64,000 nucleotides of DNA, taken from assembly GCA_017431005.1 (NCBI GenBank), contig JAFRLY010000001.1, positions 1-64,000 of the forward strand, given 5' to 3'. The position numbers were made by a program, and so were the translations under genes. The stretch comes from Clostridia bacterium (GTDB taxonomy: Bacteria; Bacillota; Clostridia; Christensenellales; Aristaeellaceae). Below, piece after piece: positions 2,867 to 17,547 of the stretch (within the stretch, counting starts at the first letter, position 1; every line of letters begins with the position of its first letter). The notes under the pieces were generated by a model, which ran no database searches, was not told the DNA's origin, and was given only the letters and a program-made list of their open reading frames with translations.

Positions 2867-3835
2867 ATGGATAAGCGGACACGGGTATTCAATGCGATGG
2901 ACAAAAAACCGGTGGATCATGTACCGGTGGGCTTCTGGTATCATTTCGGCGGGGAGCAGGCGAAGGGAGAGGCCTGTGTCCAGGCTCACATTGACTATGT
3001 GAAGGACTGCGATCTGGATATTCTGAAGATCATGTGTGACAGCTTCTTCCCCTATCCGGTCCCGGATGACATTAAGACGGCCCACGACTGGTGGAAGCTG
3101 CAGCCGATCGGAAAGGATCATCCCTTCATTCAGGGCCAGGTCTGGCGGGCAAAGCGCCTTGTGGAAGAGCTGGGCAAGGAAATGCCCATCTTCTATAACG
3201 TATTTGCTCCCTTCTCTTCCATCCGCTTCGGCGCCGGAGATGACCGGGTCATGAAGGACCTGAAGGAGGATCGGCTCGCGGTCATGCACGCGCTGGACGT
3301 GATTGCCCAGGATAACGCGCTGCTGACAGAGCTGCTGATCACCGAGGCAGGCTGCGACGGTGTTTACTACTGTGTACAGGGCGGCGAGTACGGCCGGATG
3401 ACACCCGCGGAATACCGGTCCACGATTCGTCCCAGTGACCTGTATGTGCTGGAACGGGCGAACCGTTACAGCGATTACAACATCATGCACTGCTGCGGCT
3501 GGGCCGGCGCGAAGAATCAGATGGAGCTCTGGCAGGACTATCCTGTCAAGTGTGTCAACTGGGCGGTCTATGTGGAGGAAATGTCCCTGCCTGAAGGCCG
3601 GATCTTCTTCGGCGACCGGTGCTGCCTTGGCGGCTTCAAGAGCCTGCATCATGAAGGCCAGACCCATGACGGCCTGCTGCACAACGGCACGGAAGAGGAG
3701 ATCAAAGCCTTTACCCGTGATACGATCCTGACCTTTGGCAAGCGCGGCCTGATGCTGGGCGCGGACTGCACGGTCAACGAGCACATCGATCATAACCGGC
3801 TGCGCTGGGTCGTGGAAGCGGCGCGGTCCATCTGA
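2867..3835 (+). CDS. Uroporphyrinogen-decarboxylase-family protein (MtaA/CmuA-like)
   Basis: The 322-residue protein has the URO-D/methyltransferase fold signature: an opening like KRTRVFNAMDKKPVDHVPVG, HCCG around residues 208-211, and GADCT around residue 301. In the MtaA/CmuA branch a His-x-Cys plus a later Cys bind zinc for methyl transfer. H208, C210 and C301 fit that pattern, so methyl or decarboxylase chemistry on a small metabolite is more likely than haem synthesis. ATG 2867 follows a GGGGGAG ribosome site. It is first in an operon with ABC cassette 1 (40 nt to the next gene), as often seen for URO-D-like genes in gut Clostridia, so its substrate may be linked to the imported compound. 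Exact reaction unknown. Confidence 0.8.
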   Translation: MDKRTRVFNAMDKKPVDHVPVGFWYHFGGEQAKGEACVQAHIDYVKDCDLDILKIMCDSFFPYPVPDDIKTAHDWWKLQPIGKDHPFIQGQVWRAKRLVEELGKEMPIFYNVFAPFSSIRFGAGDDRVMKDLKEDRLAVMHALDVIAQDNALLTELLITEAGCDGVYYCVQGGEYGRMTPAEYRSTIRPSDLYVLERANRYSDYNIMHCCGWAGAKNQMELWQDYPVKCVNWAVYVEEMSLPEGRIFFGDRCCLGGFKSLHHEGQTHDGLLHNGTEEEIKAFTRDTILTFGKRGLMLGADCTVNEHIDHNRLRWVVEAARSI

Positions 3836-3875
3836 TGCCGGGACCGGAGGAAACTGAAGAGGAGGTGACGCCCCC

Positions 3876-4817
3876 GTGCAAAGCGTGGAGGCCTATCAGA
3901 AGGAACGGCGGAAGGCCGGACGGCTGCGGAAAGCCGGACGGTGCTGGCAGCTTTATCTGCTGCTGCTTCCCGCGGTTGCCTACATCTTCATTTTCAACTA
4001 TATGCCTCTGTACGGTATTCAGATTGCTTTCAGAAAATATTCCGCCCGCAAGGGCTACCTGGGCTCCGCCTGGGTGGGTTGGAAAAACTTCAACCGGTTC
4101 TTCAACTCCCCGGATCTGTGGCGGCTGATCAAAAACACCCTGACCCTGAGCGTGTACTCCCTGGTGGTGGGCTTCCCGCTGCCGATCATCCTTTCGCTGA
4201 TGCTGAACCAGTGCGCCAGCGGCGGAACCAAGCGCGTCGTGCAGAACGTGATTTACGCGCCGCACTTCGTTTCCATGGTGGTGCTGGTGGGCATGATCAA
4301 CGTCATGTTCTCGGTGAATTCCGGTGTGGTGAACACGGTGCTGGAGAAGCTGGGGCATGAGAGGGTGCTGTTCGTCGGCCAGGCCAGCATCTTTCCGCAC
4401 ATGTATGTGTGGAGCGGCATCTGGCAGAATGTAGGCTGGAACACGGTCATCTATTTCGCTGCCCTGTCCTCCGTCAGCGCGGACCTGCATGACGCGGCCA
4501 TCGTGGACGGAGCCAGCAAGCGTCAGCGCATCCTGCATATCGATCTGCCGACCATCATGCCGACCATCACCATCATGCTGATCCTGCAGATCGGCCAGCT
4601 GATGAATGTCGGCTTTGAAAAGGTTTTCCTGATGCAGAACAACCTGAATCTGCAGACATCAGAAACGATTCAGACCTATGTGTACAAGATGGGCCTGCAG
4701 AATTCGGATTACAGCTATTCCACAGCGGTGGGGCTGTTCAACAACGTCATCAATCTGATCCTGCTCTCGACAGTGAACATGATCACGCGCCGCATGGGCG
4801 GCAGCGGGCTCTGGTAA
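3876..4817 (+). CDS. ABC sugar transporter permease, LplB type (cassette 1)
   Basis: A 313-residue inner-membrane permease with six predicted helices. The N-terminal part has YLLLLPAVAYIFIFNYMPLY and the cytoplasmic EAA-like loop reads DAAIVDGASKRQRILHIDLP, which contacts the ATPase. This is the LplB branch of carbohydrate uptake transporter family 1. Translation starts with GTG at 3876 behind GAGGAGGTG. The partner permease starts 12 nt later. No ATPase gene is nearby, so a shared MsmX-type ATPase is expected. Substrate unknown, probably an oligosaccharide or glycoside. Confidence 0.92.
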   Translation: MQSVEAYQKERRKAGRLRKAGRCWQLYLLLLPAVAYIFIFNYMPLYGIQIAFRKYSARKGYLGSAWVGWKNFNRFFNSPDLWRLIKNTLTLSVYSLVVGFPLPIILSLMLNQCASGGTKRVVQNVIYAPHFVSMVVLVGMINVMFSVNSGVVNTVLEKLGHERVLFVGQASIFPHMYVWSGIWQNVGWNTVIYFAALSSVSADLHDAAIVDGASKRQRILHIDLPTIMPTITIMLILQIGQLMNVGFEKVFLMQNNLNLQTSETIQTYVYKMGLQNSDYSYSTAVGLFNNVINLILLSTVNMITRRMGGSGLW

Positions 4818-4829
4818 GGGGGCGGCGGT

Positions 4830-5726
4830 ATGATCAGAGACAGAAAAACCCGGGGCGACCGCGTGTTTGACGTGGTCAACATCACGCTGCTGGTGCTGAT
4901 CGGGCTGATTATCGCATATCCCCTGTATTTCGTGATTATTGCCTCCATCAGTGATCCGGACGTGGTCAACAAGGGACAGGTGATCCTGACTCCCAAAGGC
5001 GCGACCCTGCTGGGATACGAAAGGCTGTTCCAGGACAAGACGATCTGGCGGGGCTATGCGAACACTTTCTTCTATACCTTCGCGGGCACACTGCTGGACG
5101 TGACGGTGACAACCTGCGCGGCCTATGCGCTGTCCCGGAGCGATCTGGTGGGGCGGAAGCTCCTGATGAAATATTTCGTCTTTACGATGTATTTCTCCGG
5201 CGGTTTGATCCCGCTGTTCATCCAGGTCAACAACATGGGGCTGTACAACACGCGCTGGGTTCTGATTATTCTGGGCACGGTGTCGGTTTATAACCTGATT
5301 ATCGCCCGGTCCTTCTTTGAATCGACGATTCCTCTGGAGATGCTGGAGGCCGCGAAGCTGGACGGCTGCAGCGATATACAGTTCTTCCTGCTGATCGCGC
5401 TGCCACTGTCCAAGGCCATCCTGGCGGTGCTGACGGTGTACTATGGCGTAGGTCACTGGAACCAGTATTTCAATGCTTTGATTTACACCTCCAAGCAGGA
5501 ATACTATCCGCTGCAGATCGTGCTGCGGGAAATCCTGATCCAGGCCCGTCAGACAGAGGTGGCGGTGACGGAAGGGCAGATCGCGGAACTGATCGAGCGC
5601 AACCGGTACGCGGAGCTGATCAAATACGGCGTCATTGTCGTTTCCTCCCTGCCTGTCATGATCATGTACCCCTTTGCCCAGAAATTCTTCGTCAAGGGTG
5701 TTATGTTGGGAGCTGTTAAGGGGTGA
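4830..5726 (+). CDS. ABC sugar transporter permease, YtcP type (cassette 1)
   Basis: The second permease of the cassette has 298 residues with six membrane helices and the EAA loop around LEAAKLDGCSDIQFFLLIAL. It ends in the family tail FVKGVMLGAVKG. It forms a heterodimer channel with the LplB-type partner and works with the binding protein at 5893. The TGA stop lies inside the left arm of a long inverted repeat that begins the structured element at 5723-5832, so ribosomes ending here would cover part of that structure. Confidence 0.92.
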   Translation: MIRDRKTRGDRVFDVVNITLLVLIGLIIAYPLYFVIIASISDPDVVNKGQVILTPKGATLLGYERLFQDKTIWRGYANTFFYTFAGTLLDVTVTTCAAYALSRSDLVGRKLLMKYFVFTMYFSGGLIPLFIQVNNMGLYNTRWVLIILGTVSVYNLIIARSFFESTIPLEMLEAAKLDGCSDIQFFLLIALPLSKAILAVLTVYYGVGHWNQYFNALIYTSKQEYYPLQIVLREILIQARQTEVAVTEGQIAELIERNRYAELIKYGVIVVSSLPVMIMYPFAQKFFVKGVMLGAVKG

Positions 5727-5832
5727 GATTTTTCCGACCCGCAGTGCGGGATATTTCGGAAAAATCTCACAGAGTCCGCACAGAGCGAAGGCGGCATGAA
5801 GCCGCGTTCGCGACAATGCGGACGACCGGGGG
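5723..5832 (+). ncRNA. Candidate structured RNA element, copy 1 (permease/binding-protein intergenic)
   Basis: Stem A pairs 5723-5737 with 5756-5770 (15 perfect pairs). Inside it is hairpin B, 5738-5742 with 5746-5750. Stem C pairs 5774-5780 with 5817-5823 and encloses stem D (5785-5789 with 5807-5811) and hairpin E (5791-5795 with 5801-5805, loop ATGAA). It closes with CGACCGGGG at 5823-5831. A second copy of the same length and geometry lies at 16508-16617 on the minus strand. Stems A to D differ there by compensated changes, while hairpin E and the 3' block are identical. Possible roles are mRNA stabilisation or processing, raising binding-protein over permease expression, or translation-linked attenuation. 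No known family recognised. Confidence 0.75.
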
Positions 5833-5892
5833 AGCAAACCACATCTGTACCGAACGGAATAATCCGTTCAATATAAAAAAGGAGGGTTTCTC

Positions 5893-7485
5893 ATGTTTAA
5901 ACGTTTCCTGTGCGTCTTTCTGGCTGGCCTGATGCTGCTGGGAATGGCATCCGCGGCGCCGGAAGAAGAGATCCAGTTCCCCCTCGTGAACGAGCCTCTG
6001 ACCCTGCGCTTCATGGCACCCCGTCCGTCGGATTACGCGAACGGATATGAGGATATGAAGCTGCTGAAGGAATATGAGGAAAAGACCGGTATCGACATCG
6101 AATGGGAAGAAGTTCCGCAGTCCGGCTGGGATGAGAAGGTCCAGCTGGTGCTGAACTCCGTGGACCTGCCGGACGTCATCTACGGCGGAGGTATTTCCGC
6201 CAGTGACAGCGCCCGCTATGGTCTGGACGGCGTGCTGATGCCTCTGAATGATCTGATTGAGGAACACACCATCAACATTAAGTACTGGCTGGAGCAGCGG
6301 CCTGACATCAAGAAGCTGATCACCGCTCCGGACGGCAACATCTACGGCCTGCCCTCCATCGACGAGTCCCTGTCCACGCAGGTGGCCGGCATTATGGGCA
6401 TGAACATGACCTGGCTGGAAAATCTGGGGCTGGAGATTCCGAAGACCCTGGATGAGTTCACCGCTGTGCTGCGCGCCTTCAAGGAGCAGGATGCCAACAA
6501 GAACGGCGATCCCAATGACGAGATTCCGCTGAGCTTCCGTTCCACCAACTCTGCTGACCGCACCACCTGGATCGGCTCCTTCTTCGGACCCTTCGGCGTG
6601 GTGGATGATGAAACACACATCATGGTCAAAGACGGCAAGGTTGTTTTCACCCCCGAACAGGAAGGCTTCAAGGCTGCGCTGCAGTATTTCCACGGCCTGC
6701 TTGAGGAAGGCCTGATGGACAAGGAATCCTTCACGCAGGACAGCTCCGCCTTCTTTGCCAAGGCCCGTTCTCCTGAAGGTATCGGCGCGTCCTACGTCTT
6801 CTCCACCTTCGATCTGGACCAGAACGACAACACCTACAACAACTATGACCTGATCGATCCCATCACCGGCGCTGACGGCAAAGCCCTGGTCAACCTGGCG
6901 GTTTACATTGCCGGCGTTTCCCAGAACCGTTATATGATCACCGCGGACTGCAAGGATCCCGTGGCGGCCATCAAGTGGATCGACTACTGGTGCGACAACT
7001 GGGAGAACGCCCTGACCGTGCGCTTCGGCTATGAGGGAGATTCCTGGAAGTGGCTGGATGAGGATAAGAACCAGTTCACCGAGCTGGCCCAGGCGCCCAG
7101 CGGCGACACCGTCAACCAGGCTTATGTTTCCCAGTACACCCCCTATACCACCGCTGTGATGTGGGAGCTGCAGGACCTCTGGCGCCGTAAAAAGAATTCC
7201 GCTCCTTACTTCATCGAGCGCGCTGAGAAGGCCAACGGTTCCTACCGTGCCGCGGCTGTGACCGAAATGTGGCCCCGGGTTGCCTTTGACGAGGAGACCA
7301 ACGAGCGCTTCGCGGAAATCAACACGGACCTGAAGTCCTACATTGAGAACACGATGACCACCTTCATGCTCAATGGCTTCACCGATGCGGAATATGACGC
7401 GTTCCTGCAGAAGTGCAAGGATCTGAAATGCGATGAGCTGGTGGAAATCTATCAGACCCGGTATGACCAGTTCATGGGCAAATAA
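5893..7485 (+). CDS. Extracellular solute-binding protein (cassette 1)
   Basis: A 530-residue binding protein of the LipO/YtcQ type that delivers a carbohydrate to the permeases at 3876 and 4830. The N terminus is a Sec signal peptide with a hydrophobic core and a likely ASA cleavage site near residue 21. I see no usable lipobox cysteine, unusual for a Firmicute binding protein. An ideal AAGGAGG precedes ATG 5893. The gene follows the structured element and is closed by a terminator hairpin at 7505. Ligand cannot be told from sequence. Confidence 0.9.
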   Translation: MFKRFLCVFLAGLMLLGMASAAPEEEIQFPLVNEPLTLRFMAPRPSDYANGYEDMKLLKEYEEKTGIDIEWEEVPQSGWDEKVQLVLNSVDLPDVIYGGGISASDSARYGLDGVLMPLNDLIEEHTINIKYWLEQRPDIKKLITAPDGNIYGLPSIDESLSTQVAGIMGMNMTWLENLGLEIPKTLDEFTAVLRAFKEQDANKNGDPNDEIPLSFRSTNSADRTTWIGSFFGPFGVVDDETHIMVKDGKVVFTPEQEGFKAALQYFHGLLEEGLMDKESFTQDSSAFFAKARSPEGIGASYVFSTFDLDQNDNTYNNYDLIDPITGADGKALVNLAVYIAGVSQNRYMITADCKDPVAAIKWIDYWCDNWENALTVRFGYEGDSWKWLDEDKNQFTELAQAPSGDTVNQAYVSQYTPYTTAVMWELQDLWRRKKNSAPYFIERAEKANGSYRAAAVTEMWPRVAFDEETNERFAEINTDLKSYIENTMTTFMLNGFTDAEYDAFLQKCKDLKCDELVEIYQTRYDQFMGK

Positions 7486-7504
7486 TCCTGTTATCTGACC
7501 TGAC

Positions 7505-7535
7505 CGCGGGCTGTGGATGTCCACAGCCCGCGTAT
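7505..7535 (+). terminator. Terminator hairpin after cassette 1
   Basis: CGCGGGCTGTGGA (7505-7517) pairs with TCCACAGCCCGCG (7520-7532), a very stable stem followed by a short T-rich run. It separates the binding-protein gene from the aldo/keto reductase gene. The weak T tract suggests partial read-through. Confidence 0.65.
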
Positions 7536-7561
7536 TTGAAAATGCGAATGGGGCTGAGATC

Positions 7562-8536
7562 ATGCAATACAGAAGCGTTGGCAAATCCGGTCTGAAGGTC
7601 AGCAAGGTGGCTTTGGGCAGCTGGATGACGGATCTGAAGGGCGGTCCGGCGGTGGAAATCGCGGCGCAGACCGTAAGACTGGCTTTTGAGAACGGCGTGA
7701 ATTTCTTTGACTGCGCGGATGCCTACAGCGGCGGTGAGGCGGAAAAATTTCTGGGCCGCTGCCTGAAGGATTATCCCCGCAGCAAGCTGGTGATTTCCAG
7801 CAAGGTGTTCTTCCCCATGGGGGATGGTGTTAACGAGCGCGGCCTGTCCCGCAAGCATATCTTTGAGCAGGCGGAAAAGTCCCTGAAAAACATGGGCGTG
7901 GATTATCTGGATATGTATTTCTGCCACCGCTATGATCCCACCACGCCGGTGGAGGAAACCATGCGGGCCCTGGACGACCTGGTGCATCAGGGCAAAATTC
8001 TGTATTACGGCGTCAGTGAATGGAGCCCGGTGCAGATCATGAAGGCGCTGGAAGTGATTCACGGCCTGCATCTGTATCCGATGACGGTACTCCAGCCGGA
8101 ATACAATATGGTGGACCGGTATGTGGAGGATGAAATCTTTGATATCTGCAAAGAGAACGGCATGGGCATCGTGCCCTTCTCCCCGCTGGCCCAGGGTCTG
8201 CTGACCGGCAAGTACCGCAAGGGACAGCCGATACCGGAGGGCTCCCGGGCGACGCATCAGGCGGACCGGCAGATCAACAACCTGCTGACGGACGATCATC
8301 TGGATAAGGTGGAGAAGCTGCTGAAGGTGGCGGAGAGGCTGAATGTTCCGCTGAGCGTGCTTGCCCTGGCCTGGACGCTGCGGGATCCGGTGGTTTCCAG
8401 CGTGATCACCGGCGCCACGAAGCCGGAGCAGCTGGCTATGAACCTGCAGGCAACGGAGCTGGAGCTGGATGCGGAAACGCTGAAGGAGATTGAAGCTATT
8501 CTGGATTATCATCCTTTTTACCGGAAGATTGGATGA
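7562..8536 (+). CDS. Aldo/keto reductase (Kv-beta-like family)
   Basis: A 324-residue TIM-barrel NADPH-dependent oxidoreductase. The N terminus (MQYRSVGKSGLKVSKVALG) is characteristic. The catalytic tetrad is recognisable as Asp and Tyr in FFDCADAYSGGEAE, Lys in KLVISSKVFF and His in MYFCHRYDP. The YGVSEWSP segment and a late SSVITGATKPEQL nucleotide-binding segment also fit. I start it at ATG 7562; an upstream in-frame ATG at 7517 lies inside the terminator hairpin and is unlikely. It may reduce a sugar aldehyde or keto group from the compound imported by cassette 1. Confidence 0.9.
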   Translation: MQYRSVGKSGLKVSKVALGSWMTDLKGGPAVEIAAQTVRLAFENGVNFFDCADAYSGGEAEKFLGRCLKDYPRSKLVISSKVFFPMGDGVNERGLSRKHIFEQAEKSLKNMGVDYLDMYFCHRYDPTTPVEETMRALDDLVHQGKILYYGVSEWSPVQIMKALEVIHGLHLYPMTVLQPEYNMVDRYVEDEIFDICKENGMGIVPFSPLAQGLLTGKYRKGQPIPEGSRATHQADRQINNLLTDDHLDKVEKLLKVAERLNVPLSVLALAWTLRDPVVSSVITGATKPEQLAMNLQATELELDAETLKEIEAILDYHPFYRKIG

Positions 8537-8646
8537 CAGGAGTAACTTGTTCCGGCTTGTAATGCACGGAGGCCCGATGCGCTGAAAACAGCGAGGGAAA
8601 TACGAGGAAAACTAACAGCCCGCGGCTGAAAACGGAGGGAACCGGT

Positions 8647-9285
8647 ATGACGATCAACAAGACACTGTCTGAGCAGATTCATGATTCGATTCTGGAGATG
8701 GTGATTGATGCCGGTGGTTCCAGTGAGGAACTGCTGCTGACAGAGGGGGATCTGGTGGAACGCTTCGGTGTTTCGAAAGCGCCTGTACGAGAAGCTCTGC
8801 TGCGGCTTTGCTCCGAAGAGGTGCTGAAGAGCATCCCGCGCTGCGGCTATGTGGTGGTTCAGCTGGGGGAAAAGAGCGGTCGGGAGAACCTGGAGGTCCG
8901 GAAACTGCTTGAGCTCACCTCCCTGGACCGCTATTTCAACCGGTTTACGGAGGATAAGCTGGACGAAATTGGCCGGAGGCTGACGGCAAGCCGGGAGCAG
9001 TACGGCCAGGAGGCGACAGTCTGGCAGATCTGGCAGGCAAACCTGGAGTTCCACTGTGATCTGATATCTGTTTCCGATAACCGTTATCTGGTAAAGCATC
9101 TGAAAAACTGCATCGGTGTGGAACAGCGCTATTATGCGCAGAATCATTTCCGGCGGGAGGGTAAGTTCAATGTGCATTTCACGCCGGAAGCCCATGAGAA
9201 CATACTGAAAATGATCCGGAAGGGCAATAAGGAAAAGGCTTTGAAGTTGCTGGATTGCGATATCGGAGACGGCAGAACGATCTGA
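8647..9285 (+). CDS. GntR-family transcriptional regulator (FCD-type)
   Basis: A 212-residue DNA-binding protein. Residues 1-70 form the winged helix with the recognition segment LVERFGVSKAPVREALLRLC, and residues 80-205 resemble the helical FCD ligand-binding domain. Such proteins usually repress sugar-acid or amino-acid operons and release on binding a metabolite. ATG 8647 is preceded by GGAGGGAACCGGT. The 110-nt gap before it has only a weak CGCTG-AAAA-CAGCG hairpin at 8580-8593. It may act on the inverted repeat at 2759-2791. Confidence 0.88.
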   Translation: MTINKTLSEQIHDSILEMVIDAGGSSEELLLTEGDLVERFGVSKAPVREALLRLCSEEVLKSIPRCGYVVVQLGEKSGRENLEVRKLLELTSLDRYFNRFTEDKLDEIGRRLTASREQYGQEATVWQIWQANLEFHCDLISVSDNRYLVKHLKNCIGVEQRYYAQNHFRREGKFNVHFTPEAHENILKMIRKGNKEKALKLLDCDIGDGRTI

Positions 9286-9319
9286 GCGGCTTGTCAGCCG
9301 CAGAAGGGATGAGCGGAAA

Positions 9320-10765
9320 ATGTCGGAACAGTTCAGCCGGTGGATGCCGGCGGCGGAGCAATGGATCGCGGAGCACCGGGAGGAGCTGATCCGGGAGATT
9401 CAGGACGCGGTGCGGATTCCTTCCGTCAGCCGGCCGGATCAGGCGGCGCCCGGCGCGCCGTTCGGCCCGGAATGCCGGCGCATGCTGGATCATATGCTGG
9501 CGCGCGGTGCGGCTTACGGCTTCCGCACCCGGAACATGGACGGCTGGGCCGGCACCATATCCATGGGGGACGAGTCGCATGCCATCGGTATAGTAGGGCA
9601 TCTGGACGTGGTGCCCGTGGGGGACGGATGGGTTTATCCGCCCTTTGCCGGCACCTGGCTGCCGGAGCATAACGCGCTGATCGGCAGAGGCGGCGATGAC
9701 AACAAGGGCCCGGCGGTGGCCGGCCTGTTCCTGATGCGGATGATCCGGGATCTGGGCATTCCGATGCGGTGCGGCATCCGGCTTTACTGCGGTGTCAGCG
9801 AGGAAAACGGCATGGCGGATATGCGGCACATCCGGGAAAACGGGGAAAAATTCCCGGAGGTGTCCCTGGTGCCGGATGCCGGGTTCCCGGTGAACTACGG
9901 CCAGAAGGGACACCTGAACGGGACGGTTCAGGCCCGGGTCGACGGCAATCTGCTGGCCTTCCGGTCCGGCAGCGCCCTGAACATCATTCCGGATCTGGCG
10001 GAGTGTGAGGTTGCGGTTTCACTGTCTGAGGCCGCGGCAGCCGCGGAAAGGCTGGAGGAGGGCCTGCGGAAAACCCTGGAGCTGGCTGAAACCCCGGCGG
10101 GCGTCCGGATCCGGGCCAACGGGGTATCCGGCCATGCGGCCGCACCGGAAAGCAGTGTGAACGCCATTCATCTGCTGTGCGCGGCGCTGGCGGGGATGGG
10201 TATCCTGACCGGCAGCGGCCGGGAAGTGATCGGAGCCCTGGCGGAGCTGACGGCGGACAGCTGGTGCGAAAGCGAAGGGGCAGCCTTTGCCGATGACATC
10301 TCCGGGAAAACCACCCTGGTTTACTCAACGGCGGATCTGGCGGACGGCCTGCTGACCGTCGGCGTGGACAGCCGGTATTCGATAACCTATGACGCCGCGG
10401 AGCTTCGGGAAAAGCTGGACCGGGCCTGGGAAAAGCGGGGATTCGAAGAAGCGGATATTTCCGTGTCGCGGCCCTTCTACATCCCGAAGGATGATCCGAA
10501 GGTGACGGCCCTGCAGCAGGTGTACCGGGAGCTGACGGGCCGGGAGGATCCGCCCTACACGATGGGCGGAGGCACCTATTCCCGGGAAGTTCCGGACGCG
10601 ATCTCCTTCGGGTTCGGCATGCCGGGCATGCAGCACGATCTGAGCTTTCTGCCGGCGGGGCACGGCGGCGCTCACGGCCGGGATGAGGTGCTCTGGATGG
10701 ACAAGATTGAGAACGGCATGAAGCTGTATCTGGGCGCCTTGCTGGCGCTGGACAGTATCATCTGA
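9320..10765 (+). CDS. M20-family dipeptidase (PepV/Sapep-like)
   Basis: A 481-residue zinc peptidase. Metal and catalytic motifs appear in order: GHLDVVPVGD (metal His, then Asp), GRGGDDNKGP (bridging Asp) and GVSEENG (catalytic Glu pair), with a late metal His in LPAGHGGAHGRDEV. Length and the large insert after the second motif match PepV-type cytoplasmic dipeptidases, which split short peptides after import. The gene follows the GntR gene by 34 nt and ends before a strong terminator. Confidence 0.9.
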   Translation: MSEQFSRWMPAAEQWIAEHREELIREIQDAVRIPSVSRPDQAAPGAPFGPECRRMLDHMLARGAAYGFRTRNMDGWAGTISMGDESHAIGIVGHLDVVPVGDGWVYPPFAGTWLPEHNALIGRGGDDNKGPAVAGLFLMRMIRDLGIPMRCGIRLYCGVSEENGMADMRHIRENGEKFPEVSLVPDAGFPVNYGQKGHLNGTVQARVDGNLLAFRSGSALNIIPDLAECEVAVSLSEAAAAAERLEEGLRKTLELAETPAGVRIRANGVSGHAAAPESSVNAIHLLCAALAGMGILTGSGREVIGALAELTADSWCESEGAAFADDISGKTTLVYSTADLADGLLTVGVDSRYSITYDAAELREKLDRAWEKRGFEEADISVSRPFYIPKDDPKVTALQQVYRELTGREDPPYTMGGGTYSREVPDAISFGFGMPGMQHDLSFLPAGHGGAHGRDEVLWMDKIENGMKLYLGALLALDSII

Positions 10766-10788
10766 AAAAAGTGCATACAAATACGAAG

Positions 10789-10827
10789 TCAGCGCGTTTC
10801 GGATGGACAGAACGCGCTGATTTTGTT
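10789..10827 (+). terminator. Terminator after the dipeptidase gene
   Basis: TCAGCGCGTT (10789-10798) pairs perfectly with AACGCGCTGA (10811-10820) and runs into TTTTGTT. It ends the 7.5-10.8 kb gene group before the dTDP-sugar operon. Confidence 0.85.
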
Positions 10828-10871
10828 AAAATGAATTGTTCCGGAGGGAAATGAACGGAGGAGGCGCAAAG

Positions 10872-11756
10872 ATGAAAGGAATCATTCTGGCGGGCGGAGC
10901 CGGGACGCGGCTGTATCCGCTGACAATGGTGACATCCAAGCAGCTGCTGCCGGTATATGACAAGCCCATGATCTACTATCCGCTGAGCGTGCTGATGCTG
11001 GCGGGCATCCGGGATATCCTGATCATCTCCACCCCGGAGGACACGCCCCGGTTTGAGCACCTGCTGGGGGACGGAGCAACCTTCGGCCTGCATCTGGAAT
11101 ACAAGGTGCAGCCTTCTCCGGACGGGCTGGCCCAGGCCTTCCTGCTGGGGGAGGAATTCATCGGGGATGACGCCTGCGCCATGGTGCTCGGGGATAACAT
11201 TTTTTACGGCAACGGCTTCGGAAGGACGCTGCGGGCAGCCGCGGCAAACGCGGAGGCCGGCCGGGCGACGATCTTCGGCTATTATGTGACGGATCCGGAG
11301 CGGTTCGGTATCGTGGAATTCGATGAGAACGGCAAGGTGATCTCCGTGGAGGAGAAGCCGCAGCATCCGAAGAGCAATTACTGCATCACGGGCCTGTACT
11401 TCTACCCGAAGGGGGTCAGCGCCATGGCCCATGAGGTGAAGCCGTCCGCCCGGGGCGAGCTGGAGATCACGACCCTGAACAATATGTATCTGCAGAGCGG
11501 GGAGCTGGATGTGCAGCTGCTGGGCCGGGGCTATGCCTGGCTGGACACCGGGACGATGGATTCCCTGGTGGAGGCGGCGGACTTTGTGCGCATGGTGCAG
11601 AAACGGCAGAGTGTGGTCATTTCCGCGCCGGAAGAAATTGCGTACAAAAACGGCTGGATCAGCCGGGACAAGCTGCTGGAATCCGCGGAGCGGTACGGCA
11701 AGAGCCCCTACGGCGCGCATCTGCGGGCTGTGGCGGACGGGAAGGTGCGCTACTGA
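10872..11756 (+). CDS. rfbA: Glucose-1-phosphate thymidylyltransferase
   Basis: This 294-residue enzyme couples dTTP to glucose-1-phosphate, giving dTDP-glucose, the first step of dTDP-rhamnose and related sugar synthesis. The nucleotide signature [11 protein letters not shown] is at the N terminus, followed by [18 protein letters not shown] and the catalytic block [20 protein letters not shown] ribosome site sets the start at ATG 10872 rather than the in-frame ATG at 10836. It is first of three genes in order rfbA-rfbC-rfbB. Confidence 0.97.
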
Positions 11757-11788
11757 CAGGCGCATGAAAAAGAGAAAGAGACCAGCGT

Positions 11789-12349
11789 ATGAATAAAATC
11801 GCGACAAAACTGGACGGGGTCTGGATCATTGAGCCCCAGGTCTTCGGGGACAAGCGGGGATATTTCATGGAGATCTGGTCCACCCGGAATTTTGAGGAGC
11901 TGGGCCTGGATTATCACTTTGTGCAGGACAACCAGAGCTTTACGGCGCAGAAGGGTACCCTGCGGGGCATTCATTTCCAGAACAGTCCCATGTCCCAGGC
12001 GAAGCTGGTGCGGGTATCCCGCGGCGCGGTGATGGACGTGGCGGTGGATCTGCGTAAGGACAGCCCGACTTATCTGCAGTGGACGGCGGTGGAGCTTTCG
12101 GCGGACAACAAGCGCATGCTGATGATTCCCCGGGGCTTCGGCCACGGGTTCAAAACCCTGACGGACGACGTGGAATTCTGCTACAAGGTGGATAACCTGT
12201 ACAGCAAGGAGCATGACCGCGGCATCCGGTTCAACGATCCGGCCATCGGCGTGGACTGGGGAGAGGTGAAGGAGGAGCTGCTGAGCCCGAAGGATACCGC
12301 CTCCCCGCTGCTGGCGGACAGCGACTGCAATTTTGTTTACGAGGGATAA
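11789..12349 (+). CDS. rfbC: dTDP-4-dehydrorhamnose 3,5-epimerase
   Basis: A 186-residue cupin-fold enzyme that epimerises dTDP-4-keto-6-deoxyglucose at C3 and C5. The family motifs LRGIHFQ and VRVSRGAVMDVAVDLR are present, as is PRGFGHGF with a conserved histidine. It is 32 nt after rfbA and 15 nt before rfbB. The product would normally be reduced by RfbD to dTDP-L-rhamnose, but no rfbD is in this window. Confidence 0.96.
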   Translation: MNKIATKLDGVWIIEPQVFGDKRGYFMEIWSTRNFEELGLDYHFVQDNQSFTAQKGTLRGIHFQNSPMSQAKLVRVSRGAVMDVAVDLRKDSPTYLQWTAVELSADNKRMLMIPRGFGHGFKTLTDDVEFCYKVDNLYSKEHDRGIRFNDPAIGVDWGEVKEELLSPKDTASPLLADSDCNFVYEG

Positions 12350-12364
12350 GAAGGAGAGACGGCT

Positions 12365-13384
12365 ATGACGATTATCGTGACCGGCGGCGCCGGCTTTATC
12401 GGCTCCAATTTCATTTTCCACATGCTGAAGAAGTATCCGGATTACCGGATCATCTGCCTGGACAAGCTGACCTACGCCGGCAACCTGTCCACCCTGAAGA
12501 GCGTGATGGACAATCCGAACTTCCGCTTTGTCCGTGCGGACATCTGCGACCGGGAAACGGTCTACGAGCTGTTTGAGCGGGAATCGCCGGATATCGTGGT
12601 GAATTTCGCGGCGGAGAGCCATGTGGACCGGTCCATTGAGGATCCGGGCATTTTCCTGCAGACGAATATTCTCGGCACGGCAACGCTGATGGACGCCTGC
12701 CGGCGCTACGGCATTCAGCGGTATCATCAGGTATCCACGGACGAGGTGTACGGGGACCTGCCGCTGGACCGGCCGGACCTGCTGTTCACGGAGGAGACGC
12801 CGATCCATACCTCCAGCCCCTATTCCTCCTCGAAGGCCGGGGCTGATCTGCTGGTGATGGCCTATTACCGGACCTACGGGCTGCCCTGCACGATTTCCCG
12901 CTGCTCGAACAACTACGGGCCCTATCACTTCCCGGAGAAGCTGATTCCCCTGATGATCGCCAACGCGCTGAACGACAAGCCCCTGCCGGTGTACGGCGAG
13001 GGAAAGAACGTGCGGGACTGGCTGTATGTGGAGGATCACTGCAAGGCGATCGACCTGATCATCCACAAGGGCCGGGTCGGTGAGGTGTACAACATCGGCG
13101 GCCACAATGAGATGGCGAACATCGATATCGTAAAGCTGATCTGCAGGGAACTGGGCAAGCCGGAAAGCCTGATCACCTACGTGACGGACCGGAAGGGCCA
13201 CGACATGCGGTACGCCATCGACCCGACGAAGATCCACAACGAGCTGGGCTGGCTGCCGGAGACGAAGTTTGCCGACGGCATCAAAAAGACGATTCAGTGG
13301 TATCTGGACAACCGGGAATGGTGGGAGGAAATCATCTCCGGAGAATATCAGAATTATTACGAGAAAATGTACGGCAACCGCTGA
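12365..13384 (+). CDS. rfbB: dTDP-glucose 4,6-dehydratase
   Basis: A 339-residue extended short-chain dehydrogenase that turns dTDP-glucose into dTDP-4-keto-6-deoxyglucose using bound NAD. The Rossmann motif GGAGFIGSNF is at residues 7-16, the STDEVYGDL segment carries active-site Thr, Asp and Glu, and YSSSKAGAD gives the YxxxK pair. It is last in the rfbACB operon and is followed by a strong terminator. The product feeds surface polysaccharide synthesis. Confidence 0.97.
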   Translation: MTIIVTGGAGFIGSNFIFHMLKKYPDYRIICLDKLTYAGNLSTLKSVMDNPNFRFVRADICDRETVYELFERESPDIVVNFAAESHVDRSIEDPGIFLQTNILGTATLMDACRRYGIQRYHQVSTDEVYGDLPLDRPDLLFTEETPIHTSSPYSSSKAGADLLVMAYYRTYGLPCTISRCSNNYGPYHFPEKLIPLMIANALNDKPLPVYGEGKNVRDWLYVEDHCKAIDLIIHKGRVGEVYNIGGHNEMANIDIVKLICRELGKPESLITYVTDRKGHDMRYAIDPTKIHNELGWLPETKFADGIKKTIQWYLDNREWWEEIISGEYQNYYEKMYGNR

Positions 13385-13403
13385 GGCGGCGGCCGGAGAA
13401 CAC

Positions 13404-13440
13404 AAAGGAGCGGACGCGCGAAGGCGTCCGCTCCTTTTGT
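13404..13440. terminator. Bidirectional terminator between rfbB and pepT
   Basis: GGAGCGGACGC (13407-13417) pairs with GCGTCCGCTCC (13424-13434). TTTTGT follows on the plus strand and AAA precedes it, so it could serve both converging genes. Confidence 0.85.
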
Positions 13441-13463
13441 GTCTGTATGCAATGAAGCCGGAA

Positions 13464-14660
13464 TCAGATGAGAATGCTTTCCAGCACGTCCACCATCTTT
13501 TCCAGGGAGGGCACCGGAACCAGCTCCTTCCGGCCGTGGCAGTTGTAGCCGCCGGCGGACAGGTTCGGGCAGGGCAGGCCCATGTAGGACAGGCGGGCAC
13601 CGTCGGTGCCGCCGCGGATGGGCATTGTGACGGGGGTGACGCCGTTCAGCTCGAAGGCCTTTTTCGCGCGCTCCAGGATCTCCGGATGCTGCTCCACGAT
13701 CTCCTTCATGTTCCGGTAGGAATCCCGCAGGGTGACGGTGACAGTGCCCTCGCCGTAGCGGCCGTTCAGCAGGCTTGCGATGGCGAGCACGGTCTTCTTC
13801 CGCTCCTCCAGGCGGTCAGCGTTGTGATCCCGGAGGATGTAGTTCAGCTCCGCCAGCTCCTCGTGGCCGTTCATGCCGGTCAGGTGATAGAAGCCCTCGT
13901 AGCCCTCTGTGTGCTCCGGACGCTCCCAGGGCGGCAGCAGCCCGGCGAATTCCATGGCGATCAGGGCGGCGTTCTTCATCTGGTTTTTGGCGGAGCCGGG
14001 ATGGATGCTGACGCCCTTCACCGTGACCTTGCACGAGGCGGCGTTGAAGCATTCGTATTCCAGCTCGCCCACGGCGCCGCCGTCCACCGTGTAGGCGAAG
14101 TCCGCGCCGAAGCCCGGCACGTCGAACAGATCCGCCCCGCGGCCGATTTCCTCGTCCGGGGTGAAGGCCACGCAGATTTTGCCGTGGTCCGGCGCGTCCG
14201 ACGCCAGCATCCGTTCGCACAGCGTCATGATTTCCGCCACGCCGGCCTTGTCGTCCGCGCCGAGGACGGAATCGCCGGAGGTGACGATCAGCTCCTGGCC
14301 CGCCAGGGACGGCAGGAAATCAAACCCGTCGATGACGACGCCGTTCTCCAGCGTGATGGGCTTGCCGTCGTAGCAGGGGATGACCTGCGGCCGGGTGGCG
14401 CCTTTTACGGCGTCGGAGGTGTCCATGTGGGCGATCAGGCCGATGGCCGGGCGGTCCCCGGCGCCCTTTGCCGGAATGGAGCCGTAGACGTAGCCGTGCT
14501 CATCCACCCGGGCATCCGCCACGCCCATGTCCTTCAGCTCCTTCGCCAGCAGTTCCGCCAGGGTCCGCTGGCCGGGCGTGGAGGGGCAGCAGAGGTTCTC
14601 CTCGCAGGAGGTGGTTTCAATCTGTACGTAGCGCAGGAAGCGCTCTTTGACATTGCTCAT
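13464..14660 (-). CDS. pepT: Peptidase T (tripeptidase)
   Basis: A 398-residue cytoplasmic zinc aminopeptidase that removes the N-terminal residue of tripeptides. Motifs are in family order: AHMDTSD, VLGADDKAG, AFTPDEEIGRG, HPGSAKNQMKNA and a late GGTDGARLSYMGLP before the last metal histidine. Length equals typical PepT. The start ATG 14660 follows a GAAAGGATG stretch. It is a single gene converging on rfbB and appears to be housekeeping. Confidence 0.96.
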   Translation of the reverse strand: MSNVKERFLRYVQIETTSCEENLCCPSTPGQRTLAELLAKELKDMGVADARVDEHGYVYGSIPAKGAGDRPAIGLIAHMDTSDAVKGATRPQVIPCYDGKPITLENGVVIDGFDFLPSLAGQELIVTSGDSVLGADDKAGVAEIMTLCERMLASDAPDHGKICVAFTPDEEIGRGADLFDVPGFGADFAYTVDGGAVGELEYECFNAASCKVTVKGVSIHPGSAKNQMKNAALIAMEFAGLLPPWERPEHTEGYEGFYHLTGMNGHEELAELNYILRDHNADRLEERKKTVLAIASLLNGRYGEGTVTVTLRDSYRNMKEIVEQHPEILERAKKAFELNGVTPVTMPIRGGTDGARLSYMGLPCPNLSAGGYNCHGRKELVPVPSLEKMVDVLESILI

Positions 14661-14755
14661 GATGCTTCATCCTTTCGGAGATTTTTTTCGGAATCGGTTT
14701 ATTTTACCACAGAGCCGGCCCTCCGGTACAGGGCTGAGGGCCAAAAGAAGCGCGG

Positions 14756-14783
14756 AAAAAGGCCGCCCCGGATTGGGGCGGCC
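14756..14783 (-). terminator. Terminator of ABC cassette 2
   Basis: On the minus strand a GC-rich stem (14775-14783 with 14761-14769) is followed by a five-T tract (AAAAA at 14756-14760 on plus). It lies 24 nt past the binding-protein gene stop. Confidence 0.85.
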
Positions 14784-14806
14784 AGGTTTAAGGAGGATAT
14801 ACCCTC

Positions 14807-16429
14807 TTATTTGATGGGTTCCGCCGTCTGGTTCAGCATGTGGGTGGAGTTCCCGGCTTCCCAGGCAACTGCGCGCTCGTCGATGACTTCCTGATAACCG
14901 GCATCCAGGTATTCCTGGGCGAACTGGTCATACAGGGCGTCGAACTCTTCGGGCTTGCACATGGTCAGCTTGTCGCGGTATTCCTTGTACTTCTCAACCA
15001 GCGTGGTCTGATATTCCACTTCAGCGTCGATGCTGACGGAGAACAGCGCGTTGGCGATGGCCCAGCCGGCGTCGCGGACCTTGACCTTCTCGCCGTACCA
15101 GGCGACGATGTCCTCGGTGAAGTCCTGCGGCAGGTCATGGGGCAGGTTGTTGCTGATCAGGTCTTCGATGGTACCGGCCTGACGCGCTTCAATGGTGATG
15201 CACCAGTAGTCCTTGTTGTTGGAGAAGCCCAGCTTGTGCTCGCCTTCGTAGTCGCTGACGGTCACCGGCAGGCCATCCACATAGTTGAAGGTCTCGCCTT
15301 CGATACCCCACTGGAAGGGGAACAGGTTTTCAGGCTGGGTCAGCCATTCCATGTACATCCAGGCAGCCTTCAGCTGATCCTCGGTCGCCTTGGCGGAGAA
15401 GCCCACCATCATGCCGAAGGGGTTGTCCGTGCGGTAGCCGGGGTTGGTGCCGTAGGTCTCGTCAATGGCGGTGCTCACGGGAGCGATGGCCAGCTTGGCG
15501 TCGGGGTTCGCTTCATAGAAGGCGTTCAGCCAGTCCATGGACGCGGAGATGTAGGCGCCGTAGGAATAGGTTTCGCCGTTGATGAAGTTGGTCTTCTCGT
15601 CCTCGTTGGTGGTCAGGTAATATTCGGGATTCAGCAGGCCCTTGTTGTACTTGTCGTTCTCGTTCTTCAGGAACTTCCGGTTGGGTTCCCAGCCCAGGGA
15701 CGGGATGTTGTAGTCGCCGTACATGGCCCACTCTTTTTCATCCAGGGGCCAGGTGCGCCATGCGTAGTTCTGGTCAGCGCCGACACCGGAGATCATGACG
15801 CCGCCGGCGGGATGCTCGGCAATGCCCGCGTCCTTGATCTTCTGCATCGCATCGTTGTATTCGCTGGTGGTAAGCGGCACATGGTCATATCCGATCTGCT
15901 CCAGCCAGTCCATACGCACGAAGTTCTGGAAGGTGTAGGTGGTGTCATAGTAGGGGCGCAGCGCCGCGGCGAAATAGGTTTCGCCGTTGATCTGGGTGTA
16001 GGTCAGCTGGTTGTTCTCCACCATGCGGTTGTAATAGGTGGGAGCAACGGCGGCGAAGTCGTCCATGCTGAAGGTGGCCAGATAGCCGTCAGCGGCCCAC
16101 TGGGTGACCTTCGGATAGTCGTACTCCATCAGCACGGTGGGCAGGTCTTCCGCCGCAGCCAGCATGGAATACTTGGTCATGACGTCGGTCCGGGGGATGG
16201 CAACATAGTTCACGGTGATGTTGTACTTGTCGCCGAAGTTCTCCTGGATCCACTTGGTCCAGTAGTTGTCTTCCACGTTGGGAACGCCGGCCTGTCCGCG
16301 GTCATAAACCGGGATGGTGATGGATACGTTCTCAGCGAAGGGCTCCCACGCGGGGGTCTCAGCGGACGCCACAGATACCATGGACAGCATCATGATGGCA
16401 GCCAGTACCAGGGCAAACAGTTTCTTCAT
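14807..16429 (-). CDS. Extracellular solute-binding protein (cassette 2)
   Basis: A 540-residue sugar-binding protein of the LipO-like group. The signal peptide (MKKLFALVLAAIMMLSMVSV and then ASA) points to signal peptidase I cleavage and shows no lipobox cysteine. ATG 16429 has GGAGG upstream; an in-frame ATG at 16480 would put extra sequence before the signal peptide. It is the last gene of the minus-strand cassette, after the second copy of the structured element, and presumably the most highly expressed. Given the GH112 phosphorylase beyond the divergent regulator, a galactosyl disaccharide is a reasonable but unproven ligand. Confidence 0.9.
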   Translation of the reverse strand: MKKLFALVLAAIMMLSMVSVASAETPAWEPFAENVSITIPVYDRGQAGVPNVEDNYWTKWIQENFGDKYNITVNYVAIPRTDVMTKYSMLAAAEDLPTVLMEYDYPKVTQWAADGYLATFSMDDFAAVAPTYYNRMVENNQLTYTQINGETYFAAALRPYYDTTYTFQNFVRMDWLEQIGYDHVPLTTSEYNDAMQKIKDAGIAEHPAGGVMISGVGADQNYAWRTWPLDEKEWAMYGDYNIPSLGWEPNRKFLKNENDKYNKGLLNPEYYLTTNEDEKTNFINGETYSYGAYISASMDWLNAFYEANPDAKLAIAPVSTAIDETYGTNPGYRTDNPFGMMVGFSAKATEDQLKAAWMYMEWLTQPENLFPFQWGIEGETFNYVDGLPVTVSDYEGEHKLGFSNNKDYWCITIEARQAGTIEDLISNNLPHDLPQDFTEDIVAWYGEKVKVRDAGWAIANALFSVSIDAEVEYQTTLVEKYKEYRDKLTMCKPEEFDALYDQFAQEYLDAGYQEVIDERAVAWEAGNSTHMLNQTAEPIK

Positions 16430-16507
16430 GAGGGTTCCTCCTTTAAAATATATATTTGATACAGCCGTGGCTGTATGCAAAACGGGATAACGGGGGACGA
16501 AAATTTC

Positions 16508-16617
16508 TCCCCGGTCGCCAGCACAATCGCAGACGCGGCTTCATGCCGCCTCTGCTCATTGCTGGCTCACTGAGAATTTTTTGCGATTTCCGCCACCGGC
16601 GGGCAAAAAATTCTCAG
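16508..16617 (-). ncRNA. Candidate structured RNA element, copy 2 (permease/binding-protein intergenic)
   Basis: Given in plus coordinates, read on the minus strand. Stem A pairs 16603-16617 with 16570-16584 (15 pairs) and encloses hairpin B, 16598-16602 with 16590-16594. Stem C pairs 16560-16566 with 16517-16523 and encloses stem D (16551-16555 with 16529-16533) and hairpin E (16545-16549 with 16535-16539, loop ATGAA). The CGACCGGGG block is 16509-16517. Spacing matches copy 1 at 5723-5832: stem B directly abuts the left arm of A, its loop is 3 nt, and a 5-nt linker leads to the right arm. The permease TGA is again in the left arm of stem A. Confidence 0.75.
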
Positions 16618-17534
16618 CCCTTTACGGCCCCGACCATAACGCCCTTGACGAAGTACTTCTGCAGGAAGGGGTAGATGCAGATGATCGGGATGGTGGCGAA
16701 CATGATGCAGGAAGCCTGCAGCACCTCAGGCGTGCTGGTCACCTCAATGGCTTCGGACAGGGTGGCCGTCTGGGCCTCCGTGGCGGAAGCCACCAGCTGA
16801 TACAGCTTGTACTGAATCATCTTCAGGGCTTCCTTGGTGATGTAGTACTTATTATCGGCGTAGCTGTTCCAGCGCCCGACGGCATAGAACAGGCTCAGGG
16901 TCGCGATAATCGGCAGGGACAGGGGCAGCACGATCCGGAACAGAATCTGGAAATTGCTGGCGCCGTCCAGGAAGGCCGCTTCCTCCAGGGTATCCGGAAT
17001 GGTGCTCTGGAAGTAGTTCTTCATGATCAGCATGTTATAGGACGAATAGATCAGCGGCAGAATCAGCACCCACATGCTGTTCAGCATGTTCAGGTTCTTG
17101 TACAGCAGGTAGGTCGGAATCAGGCCGGCGCTGAAATACATCGGGATCATCAGCAGCACGGTGAAGAAGGCCCGGCCCTTGAGCCGCTTCTTGGACAGGG
17201 GATAGGCGGCGCAGGTGCAGGTGATCATGCCCAGCACGGTGAAGATCAGCACGACCTCCACGCTGTAGAGGAAGGAGTGCACCAGGGTGCCGTCCTGGAA
17301 GATCGAGTTGTAGGCGTCCAGGTTGAACCCGATGGGCCAGAGTACCACGGCCTTCTGCATGACAGCAGTATTGCTGGACACGGACTTTGCTGCCAGGTGG
17401 ACGAAGGGCAGCACGCAGGTCGCGCACAGGATCACCAGAATGAAGATGATCAGGAAGTCGCCGATCGTGAATTTCCGGATCGCGTGGGAACCGTCATTGA
17501 TGGTGTCGAATTCTTTTTCCTTATTCTTTGCCAT
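16614..17534 (-). CDS. ABC sugar transporter permease, YtcP type (cassette 2)
   Basis: A 306-residue six-helix permease with the EAA loop LEEAAFLDGASNFQILFRI and the family tail FVKGVMVGAVKG. It pairs with the LplB-type permease at 17548. ATG 17534 follows AAGGAGGTG; the longer frame would start at a GTG inside that ribosome site. The stop codon falls within stem A of the structured element, as in cassette 1. Confidence 0.92.
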   Translation of the reverse strand: MAKNKEKEFDTINDGSHAIRKFTIGDFLIIFILVILCATCVLPFVHLAAKSVSSNTAVMQKAVVLWPIGFNLDAYNSIFQDGTLVHSFLYSVEVVLIFTVLGMITCTCAAYPLSKKRLKGRAFFTVLLMIPMYFSAGLIPTYLLYKNLNMLNSMWVLILPLIYSSYNMLIMKNYFQSTIPDTLEEAAFLDGASNFQILFRIVLPLSLPIIATLSLFYAVGRWNSYADNKYYITKEALKMIQYKLYQLVASATEAQTATLSEAIEVTSTPEVLQASCIMFATIPIICIYPFLQKYFVKGVMVGAVKG

Positions 17535-17547
17535 GTTTCCCACCTCC

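Follow-up and report, generated by a model that had tools for sequence, protein, structure and literature searches.

Structured DNA repeats of about 106 bp as a candidate mobile family in a clostridial genus, with a subset of copies fitted to the 3' ends of genes

Short structured repeats such as BOX, RUP, ERIC and Correia/NEMIS can lie in transcripts and affect mRNA, and the repetitive extragenic palindromic (REP) sequence between malE and malF is an intercistronic mRNA stabiliser. The bcr1 to bcr18 repeats of the Bacillus cereus group are interspersed, some of them resembling miniature inverted-repeat transposable elements (MITEs) and some conserved in structure, and often lie in untranslated regions or between the genes of operons, according to the part of PMC3446304 drawn on here. 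REPs and REPINs with the REP-associated tyrosine transposase (RAYT, or TnpA-REP) are palindromic, mostly intergenic and thought to be mobile in trans, and the ends of GTAG REPs often supply the stop codon of the flanking open reading frame (ORF), in the portion of PMC3733652 that concerns them; the excerpt of PMC8266576 used here describes REPs as hairpins of 20-50 nt after a tetranucleotide, most often GTAG. In the 64,000 nucleotides of Clostridia bacterium DNA analysed here (the window: GenBank assembly GCA_017431005.1, contig JAFRLY010000001.1, positions 1 to 64,000), an element with two hairpin domains occurs twice, each time between a permease gene and a solute-binding protein gene. With a probability of about 0.75, both copies belong to a large family of structured, mobile but non-autonomous DNA repeats with a unit of about 106 bp. 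Copies of the family are dispersed and sharp-ended, are present in one and absent from another of two close relatives, and in one clean case were inserted at GG; a subset lies at gene 3' ends in the direction of transcription, with the GG in the last codons and the stop codon in the foot of the first stem.

The element consists of GG, a stem of 15 bp (stem A) with a capping hairpin (hairpin B), a second hairpin domain with tandem G-A pairs, and a CGG tail. The two positions of the 5' border are G in 91% and 98% of 121 copies, and the two of the 3' GG in 86% and 93%. A covariance model of the two window copies (R1) gave 14 matches at E <= 1 in their own genome, the best beyond the two copies at E 2.3e-22, and was positive in 18 of 41 genomes, namely 18 of the 25 that belong to the same genus (the own genome included) and none of the 16 others, the best match outside the own genome having E 4.4e-18. 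A second model (R2) was made from A4, an ungapped alignment of 19 copies of one common length from which long-stem copies, both window copies among them, were left out. At E <= 0.01, R2 matched all 45 genomes examined in the genus, with 1 to 42 matches each: 20, 42 and 39 in the set of G000, G050 and G002, the 20 being those of the own genome, with the two window copies among them. An order-wide search was positive at E <= 1e-4 in nine of 396 genomes, eight of them from the genus and the ninth from a different genus of the family, and scored nine candidates per genome, so that it tests absence outside the family only weakly. Among 20 genomes from other genera of the family, six were positive at E <= 0.1, many of their matches being weak; by eye, five of these six (G197, G253, G284, G358 and G171, from four genera) have the same anatomy in diverged form, and the matches in G314 look like a different palindrome. 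In G197, many related copies lie near contig ends (L092, L101, L105, L107 and L111), as if a longer repeat had broken the assembly.

Pairs of copies within one genome align from about position -2 to positions 106-111 and have unrelated flanks, an example being the copies at 370609 and 491997 in G002, which are 97.4% identical over 114 nt; other such pairs align over the 3' domain only or within longer composite repeats. G041 and G022 are 95.2% identical in a sampled stretch of 8.4 kb, and in 400 kb of each R2 found five matches, only one of those in G022 being full-length. Compared with G022, the five G041 copies comprise one with an orthologous full copy, one interrupted by another repeat, one with a clean empty site and two for which no full copy was found. 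The clean empty site reads ..ATCTCTGATTTGG|GTAACAACTG.. in G022 and is filled in G041 after the same GG (..GATTTGG), a few bases differing beside the 3' end, and the left arm of stem A was carried in by the element. G005 is without a 199-bp composite, present in G002, in which one element is joined to a different repeat, and a longer block with a second G002 copy is absent in both G041 and G022. Copies that match end to end between unrelated flanks, their occurrence in both orientations, tandem arrays and the clean presence and absence at GG together argue for a mobile repeat.

Two tandem arrays were seen in G000, one of three head-to-tail copies with a period of 104 nt at a contig end (G000:C41:32588-32880) and one that starts with a full copy and continues with copies lacking stem A (G000:C11:111245-111483); a third, of three copies, lies between atpG and atpD of G050 (L218:1192-1503), its second repeat containing copied atpG codons. 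Two more dispersed repeats (L158:4105-4181 and L158:10444-10570, in G002) are often joined to the element in composites in G002 and its relatives.

Filled loci can differ by whole hairpins. At guaA, the identity between G050 and G014 is 97.0% over 600 nt of upstream sequence, 65.4% in the element and 55.9% over 260 nt downstream, where agreement is short only, and all six differences in stem A are matched on both arms; an old insertion may have been replaced here, or two insertions may have occurred at one site. The orthologous pair of G041 and G022 has an upstream flank of 95.5% identity, a swap of both arms of stem E as its main change and a downstream flank that is alike for about 75 nt only. 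With all six guaA differences paired, hairpins seem to be exchanged as matched units, probably through DNA copying.

This turnover bears on the meaning of the covariation, which was counted in 120 distinct copies obtained from 123 matches at E <= 1e-7 in 100 chosen loci. Standard pairs make up 86.7% of 5074 cells, double-sided changes occur at 39 of 43 pairs, and the 1088 double-sided cells compare with a shuffled mean of 318 and a maximum that fell short in all 500 shuffles, slid controls being 33-43% paired; the alignment was fitted to the structure, and these counts therefore lean towards it. A4, which was aligned without a model, is 90.2% paired, with double-sided changes at 30 of 43 pairs and in 142 cells, for a structure that was drawn from the same copies. 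The further copies that the first-pass annotation had proposed to search for do exist in related genomes, with a large excess of paired changes. Its conclusion that such compensation argues for selection on RNA structure fares less well: the covariation is extreme, and its value as proof of RNA-structure selection is doubtful. Selection on an RNA fold should tolerate G-U and not A-C, and in helices A, B, C and D-E (39 pairs) G-T fills 30 and A-C 32 of 4631 cells. This count omits the four internal-loop pairs, which have 2 and 35; all 43 pairs together have 32 and 67 of 5074 cells. The acceptor and T stems of tRNAs from the same loci have G-T in 20 and A-C in 3 of 276 cells, this control being 23 of 41 distinct sequences (a CCA end as the sole filter keeps the same 23 and the same counts); all 37 tRNAs of suitable length, misregistered ones included, have G-T in 42, A-C in 18 and other combinations in 103 of 444 cells. 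The doubt arises because G-U is as rare as A-C, unlike in tRNAs, and because whole hairpins differ between near-identical loci. Since the copies are related and many are young, the scarcity of G-U is an argument, not a proof, against selection at the RNA level.

Which strand folds is suggested by the tandem G-A pairs. Three sites hold, in almost every one of the 120 copies, either two Watson-Crick pairs or tandem 5'-GA/GA: the foot site (Watson-Crick 57, GA/GA 54, other or gapped 9), the middle site (29, 84 and 7) and the outer site (101, 18 and 1), the outer and middle sites never being GA/GA together in one copy. A fourth site, beside stem D, is GA/GA in 60 copies, other in 45 and gapped in 15. 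Both RNA and single-stranded DNA form stable tandem G-A pairs, and the opposite strand would read TC/TC at these sites; the top strand is therefore probably the folding strand.

The genomic setting was examined in G000, G050 and G002, where 100 of the 101 R2 matches were placed (a 28.5-bit match being left out) relative to genes called by a codon-usage script, and 79 matches of at least 56 bits were classed as good. Of these, 20 overlap a same-strand gene at its 3' end, the genes being those of 16 permeases, atpG, guaA, pyrE and purA. The other 59 lie in every orientation between varied genes (with E as the element, >E> 19, <E< 13, >E< 11, <E> 9 and region edges 7), and for two of the 79 the position was flagged as lying within a called gene. 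In G012, a copy at L039:1504-1608 stands apparently in frame inside an ORF, so that the element may be translated there. With one weak match added, the gene-end copies number 21 and follow 17 permease genes, guaA, pyrE, atpG and purA; 13 of the 17 permeases were checked by Pfam and four by C-terminus, purA was identified by Pfam, and guaA, pyrE and atpG by sequence. Downstream of the 17 permease copies are genes for nine solute-binding or DUF3502 proteins, four proteins without a Pfam match at 1e-5, two ATP-binding cassette (ABC) ATPases, a dihydrodipicolinate synthase and a glycoside hydrolase of family 43. Elsewhere in the genus, gene-end copies follow relA-type, baseplate-plug-type and major capsid genes, and one stands after an amino-acid kinase gene and before a class-III aminotransferase gene.

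Among 62 sites that match the permease-end pattern G[AS]-x-KG*, the element is present at 15 (8 of 33 in G000, 4 of 15 in G050 and 3 of 14 in G002, one of them weak), so that most such gene ends lack it. The pattern misses the known permease-end copies at 50217 in G000 and 1850449 in G050, and its matches were not all checked as permeases. The family is not tied to one class of genes, and a specificity for transporter operons, as the first-pass annotation implied it, is not supported: the members of the family are largely scattered without regard to transporter genes, an outcome that the annotation had named as refuting its reading.

What sets the gene-end copies apart is their fit to the host gene. 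Columns 4-6 of the alignment form a stop codon in 16 of the 20 gene-end copies versus one of the 59 others, which mostly start with GCGA (35) or ACGA (6), and in each of the 20 gene-end rows column 4 forms a Watson-Crick pair with its partner. The stem foot therefore fits the frame of the host gene, and the partner strand matches it.

If the family is mobile, the top strand would fold as single-stranded DNA during mobilisation, and an enzyme acting in trans would move the element, for which a single-strand, hairpin-recognising transposase would be fitting. The perfect hairpins would be kept by templated copying or conversion between copies, or by template switching, and not by stepwise compensation. 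The copies in operons would be transcribed and would separate permease from binding protein by a strong boundary of two hairpins, with a possible change in how the mRNA is processed or decays; judged from the sequence, an effect on the expression of the binding protein is possible.

Several observations weigh against a mobile family of this kind. No mobilising gene was found, and none of 20 Y1 transposase loci with flanks of about 1.5 kb holds the element; in G050 and G002, the nearest placed match is 12-67 kb away for ten of the 12 Y1 genes. There is one clean empty site only, the other absences being those of composite repeats, and no target duplication longer than GG was seen at the one clean junction. 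Some gene-end loci are filled in several species, which could mean an ancestral function in cis and not recent mobility. The comparison of G-T with A-C draws on non-independent copies in a structure-fitted alignment, and parity would also be expected of young copies. At atpG, moreover, the left arm of stem A encodes the native end of the protein; this would be unexplained if a complete element had simply been inserted.

The last point leads to a possible, if tentative, alternative, in which the repeat is mobile and its 5' hairpin is rewritten in place at each gene-end site: the 3' end of the host gene, stop codon included, would become the left arm, which template switching at the capping hairpin would then copy into the right arm. 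Three of 30 atpG sites examined are filled, and their left arms encode the protein ends of relatives without the element (SGL* in G004 and G052, and SGVGDNR* in G050, of the form SGVGxxR*), with right arms that are complementary or nearly so. The close relative G014 ends in SGVGEGR* and has no element there; it could have lost one, which leaves the direction of the change open. At the atpG 3' end of G011 (L223), GGCAGCGGACTTTGACGA without an element resembles a left arm alone, perhaps as the remnant of a lost copy or as a native look-alike. The same guaA position is filled in G050, G014 and G057 of 30 loci (two cut at a contig end), and each keeps the native E*. The pyrE left arm of G050 encodes WANL*, close to the WATL* of one of 14 relatives; the other 13 end otherwise, and 80 pyrE loci have no element match within about 2.5 kb, a result that tests little. 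The stop-codon foot is peculiar to gene-end copies, and the six paired guaA differences are as rewriting would have them. In the clean insertion of G041, however, the left arm came with the element and not from the host, copies of G002 that are 95-97% identical share their left arms at unrelated sites, and the inner bases of the left arm are alike among permease copies by eye. Selection of variants plus conversion between copies could also give the same result. If rewriting did occur, each gene-end hairpin would be near-perfect and partly host coding DNA, its structure tailored anew to every site with the host protein unchanged. The filled and empty site of G041 and G022, with its carried left arm, also led to the rejection of guide-RNA or target-matching insertion.

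A rival to the mobile repeat is the first-pass annotation's own proposal of a cis-acting RNA of transporter operons, a stabiliser or processing site that is under selection at the RNA level and lets the binding protein be made in excess; this proposal now appears unlikely. It accounts for the 17 of 21 gene-end copies that follow permease genes, nine of them before a solute-binding or DUF3502 protein and four before a protein without a Pfam match, and the strand-specific tandem G-A implies a folded top strand. G000, G004 and G002 all have the element at one shared permease-ATPase junction, and the gene-end sites include atpG-atpD, whose products differ in stoichiometry. It does not account for the 59 good matches away from gene ends in all orientations, for the pattern-matched permease ends without the element, or for the lack of a G-U excess, and the genes downstream of gene-end copies also encode the two ATPases, the dihydrodipicolinate synthase and the family 43 hydrolase and include pyrB- and purB-type genes. 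On present evidence, the element is not a transporter-specific regulatory RNA; it is a mobile structured interspersed repeat, a subset of which is fitted to gene ends.

Movement of the element by a Y1 transposase, as a REP/RAYT-type or IS200-type element, is likewise improbable. Hairpins with mismatches, a high copy number and ends that supply stop codons recall the REPs of PMC3733652, as far as the relevant portion of that source goes. Y1 transposase genes were found in 28 of the 45 genomes of the genus, most of them open frames of about 250-340 amino acids and some of about 155. When wider Y1 loci were searched, two of 13 held the element; in the closest pair seen, an element of G050 (L216:3570-3675, or 3043043-3043148) is 213 bp from an IS200-like Y1 gene (3042474-3042830), and a second G050 element is 1.6 kb from a longer Y1 gene. 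Against this stand the 17 of 45 genomes, many of them incomplete, that have element matches and no Y1 match, the loci and distances given above, the absence of a GTAG or CGTC tag at the border, and a unit of about 106 bp with two hairpins. A phage or plasmid as vehicle was set aside, a phage collection searched with two element queries, a plasmid collection searched with one and viral contigs searched with two exact patterns having given no match. In three genomes, copies stand directly after genes ending in YMDGI* (L035:1504-1609, L033:1504-1610 and L026:1504-1609), and the one of these genes that was scanned, in L035, is a major capsid gene (PF09950), so that prophages are possible carriers of the repeat.

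Strong hairpins after a stop codon might bring to mind ordinary intrinsic terminators or inverted repeats that arose by chance. Both are refuted by the family, R1 finding members down to the E values given above, and neither window copy is followed by a U-tract, nor was a terminator listed at copy 1 in a scan of 3800-7600 (copy 2 lies outside it). The attC sites of integrons, inside which stop codons can lie, were considered and dropped as copies follow the core genes atpG, guaA and pyrE; no attC search was made.

The two window copies conform to the family. Copy 1 spans 5721..5829 on the plus strand (R2 match of 75.9 bits, E 1.9e-15 in the window) and copy 2 spans 16511..16619 on the minus strand (76.4 bits, E 1.5e-15). 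Copy 1 begins with the conserved GG (5721..5722), the first two bases of the permease's last Gly codon and the putative insertion dinucleotide. The left arm of stem A (5723..5737) is followed by hairpin B (CCCGC-AGT-GCGGG, 5738..5750, from fold and covariation), a one-sided bulge of 5 nt (5751..5755, from fold and alignment) and the right arm (5756..5770, from fold and covariation). The 3' domain (5774..5823) contains stem C (5774-5780/5817-5823), an internal loop with tandem G-A, stem D (5785-5789/5807-5811) and hairpin E (5791-5805), and the tail GACCGG occupies 5824..5829; an outer tandem G-A of the GA in this tail with 5772-5773 is possible. The left arm of copy 2 lies at 16603..16617. As the first-pass annotation had it, the permease stop codon TGA is in the left arm of stem A in both copies (5724-5726 on the plus strand and 16614-16616 on the minus strand), and sequence, folding and Pfam agree on two copies of one fold with paired differences between permease and binding-protein genes. 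Relative to the extent given there (5723-5832 and 16508-16617), the family borders add the two conserved G before stem A and end about 3 bases before the 3' end.

Stem A has 15 pairs in each window copy, hairpin B and stems C and D differ by paired changes, and both copies have exactly the same innermost hairpin (GCGGC AUGAA GCCGC) and the same tail (CGACCGGGG). The minimum free energies are -63.6 kcal/mol for copy 1 and -64.5 kcal/mol for copy 2 (z -8.6 and -7.6, with none of 200 shuffles as good); the reverse strands, at -62.3 and -59.0 kcal/mol, fold nearly as well, so that energy alone does not reveal the folding strand. No third credible copy was found in the window by a default-filter search, the next best match having E 0.91. 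That no named RNA family has this plan is borne out by a search of 4227 Rfam families, which at gathering scores found only the 5S rRNA and tRNA in the window and matched the copies at chance level only, at E <= 5. The 5S rRNA and tRNA lie at the window start (20-216).

Both operons have two BPD_transp_1 permeases upstream of the element and one protein of a solute-binding family downstream, by Pfam. The permease gene 5' of copy 1 (4830..5726, plus strand) ends in ..GAVKG*, and the gene 3' of it (5893..7485, plus strand) encodes an SBP_bac_1 protein. The permease gene 5' of copy 2 occupies 16614..17543 on the minus strand, and the SBP_bac_8 gene 3' of it occupies 14807..16429 on the minus strand, with ATG at 16429 as the chosen start and 16480 as the start in the ORF list.

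The family carries a warning: very strong covariation, usually taken as proof of a functional RNA, can have its source in mobile repetitive DNA in which hairpins are renewed with both arms matching; here, a plain tally of G-U and A-C spoke against the functional-RNA reading. The genus offers a dense system in which several genomes are in one or two contigs, and the origin of compensated stems and of the fitting to gene ends is directly traceable in it. If the operon copies shift the ratio of permease to binding protein, they would show a repeat recruited into many operons at one exact position.

Among known systems, the element can be likened to BOX, RUP, ERIC and Correia/NEMIS by general description alone. 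The copies between permease and binding-protein genes might, by analogy, act like the REP between malE and malF, and unlike that REP most copies are outside such operons. REPs further differ, going by the portions of PMC3733652 and PMC8266576 used, in that the border of the element is GG followed by variable sequence, without GTAG or CGTC, its unit is about 106 bp and its association with Y1 genes is at best rare. Unlike a MITE, it ends in GG and CGG without terminal inverted repeats, and at most GG is repeated at the one clean junction. Searches of the literature found no description of the element, which does not prove that none exists. Like bcr1 to bcr18, it is an interspersed structured repeat of one bacterial group; the descriptions of those repeats in the part of PMC3446304 drawn on have no two-domain plan, tandem G-A or GG border, so that the element is set apart from them by description and not by sequence comparison. 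It shares with structured interspersed repeats such as bcr1 the dispersed, sharp-bordered copies, the conserved secondary structure that is one of their marks, and presence and absence between relatives (one clean case and two composite blocks), and on these features of its sequence it would be a previously undescribed variant of the structured mobile interspersed repeats.

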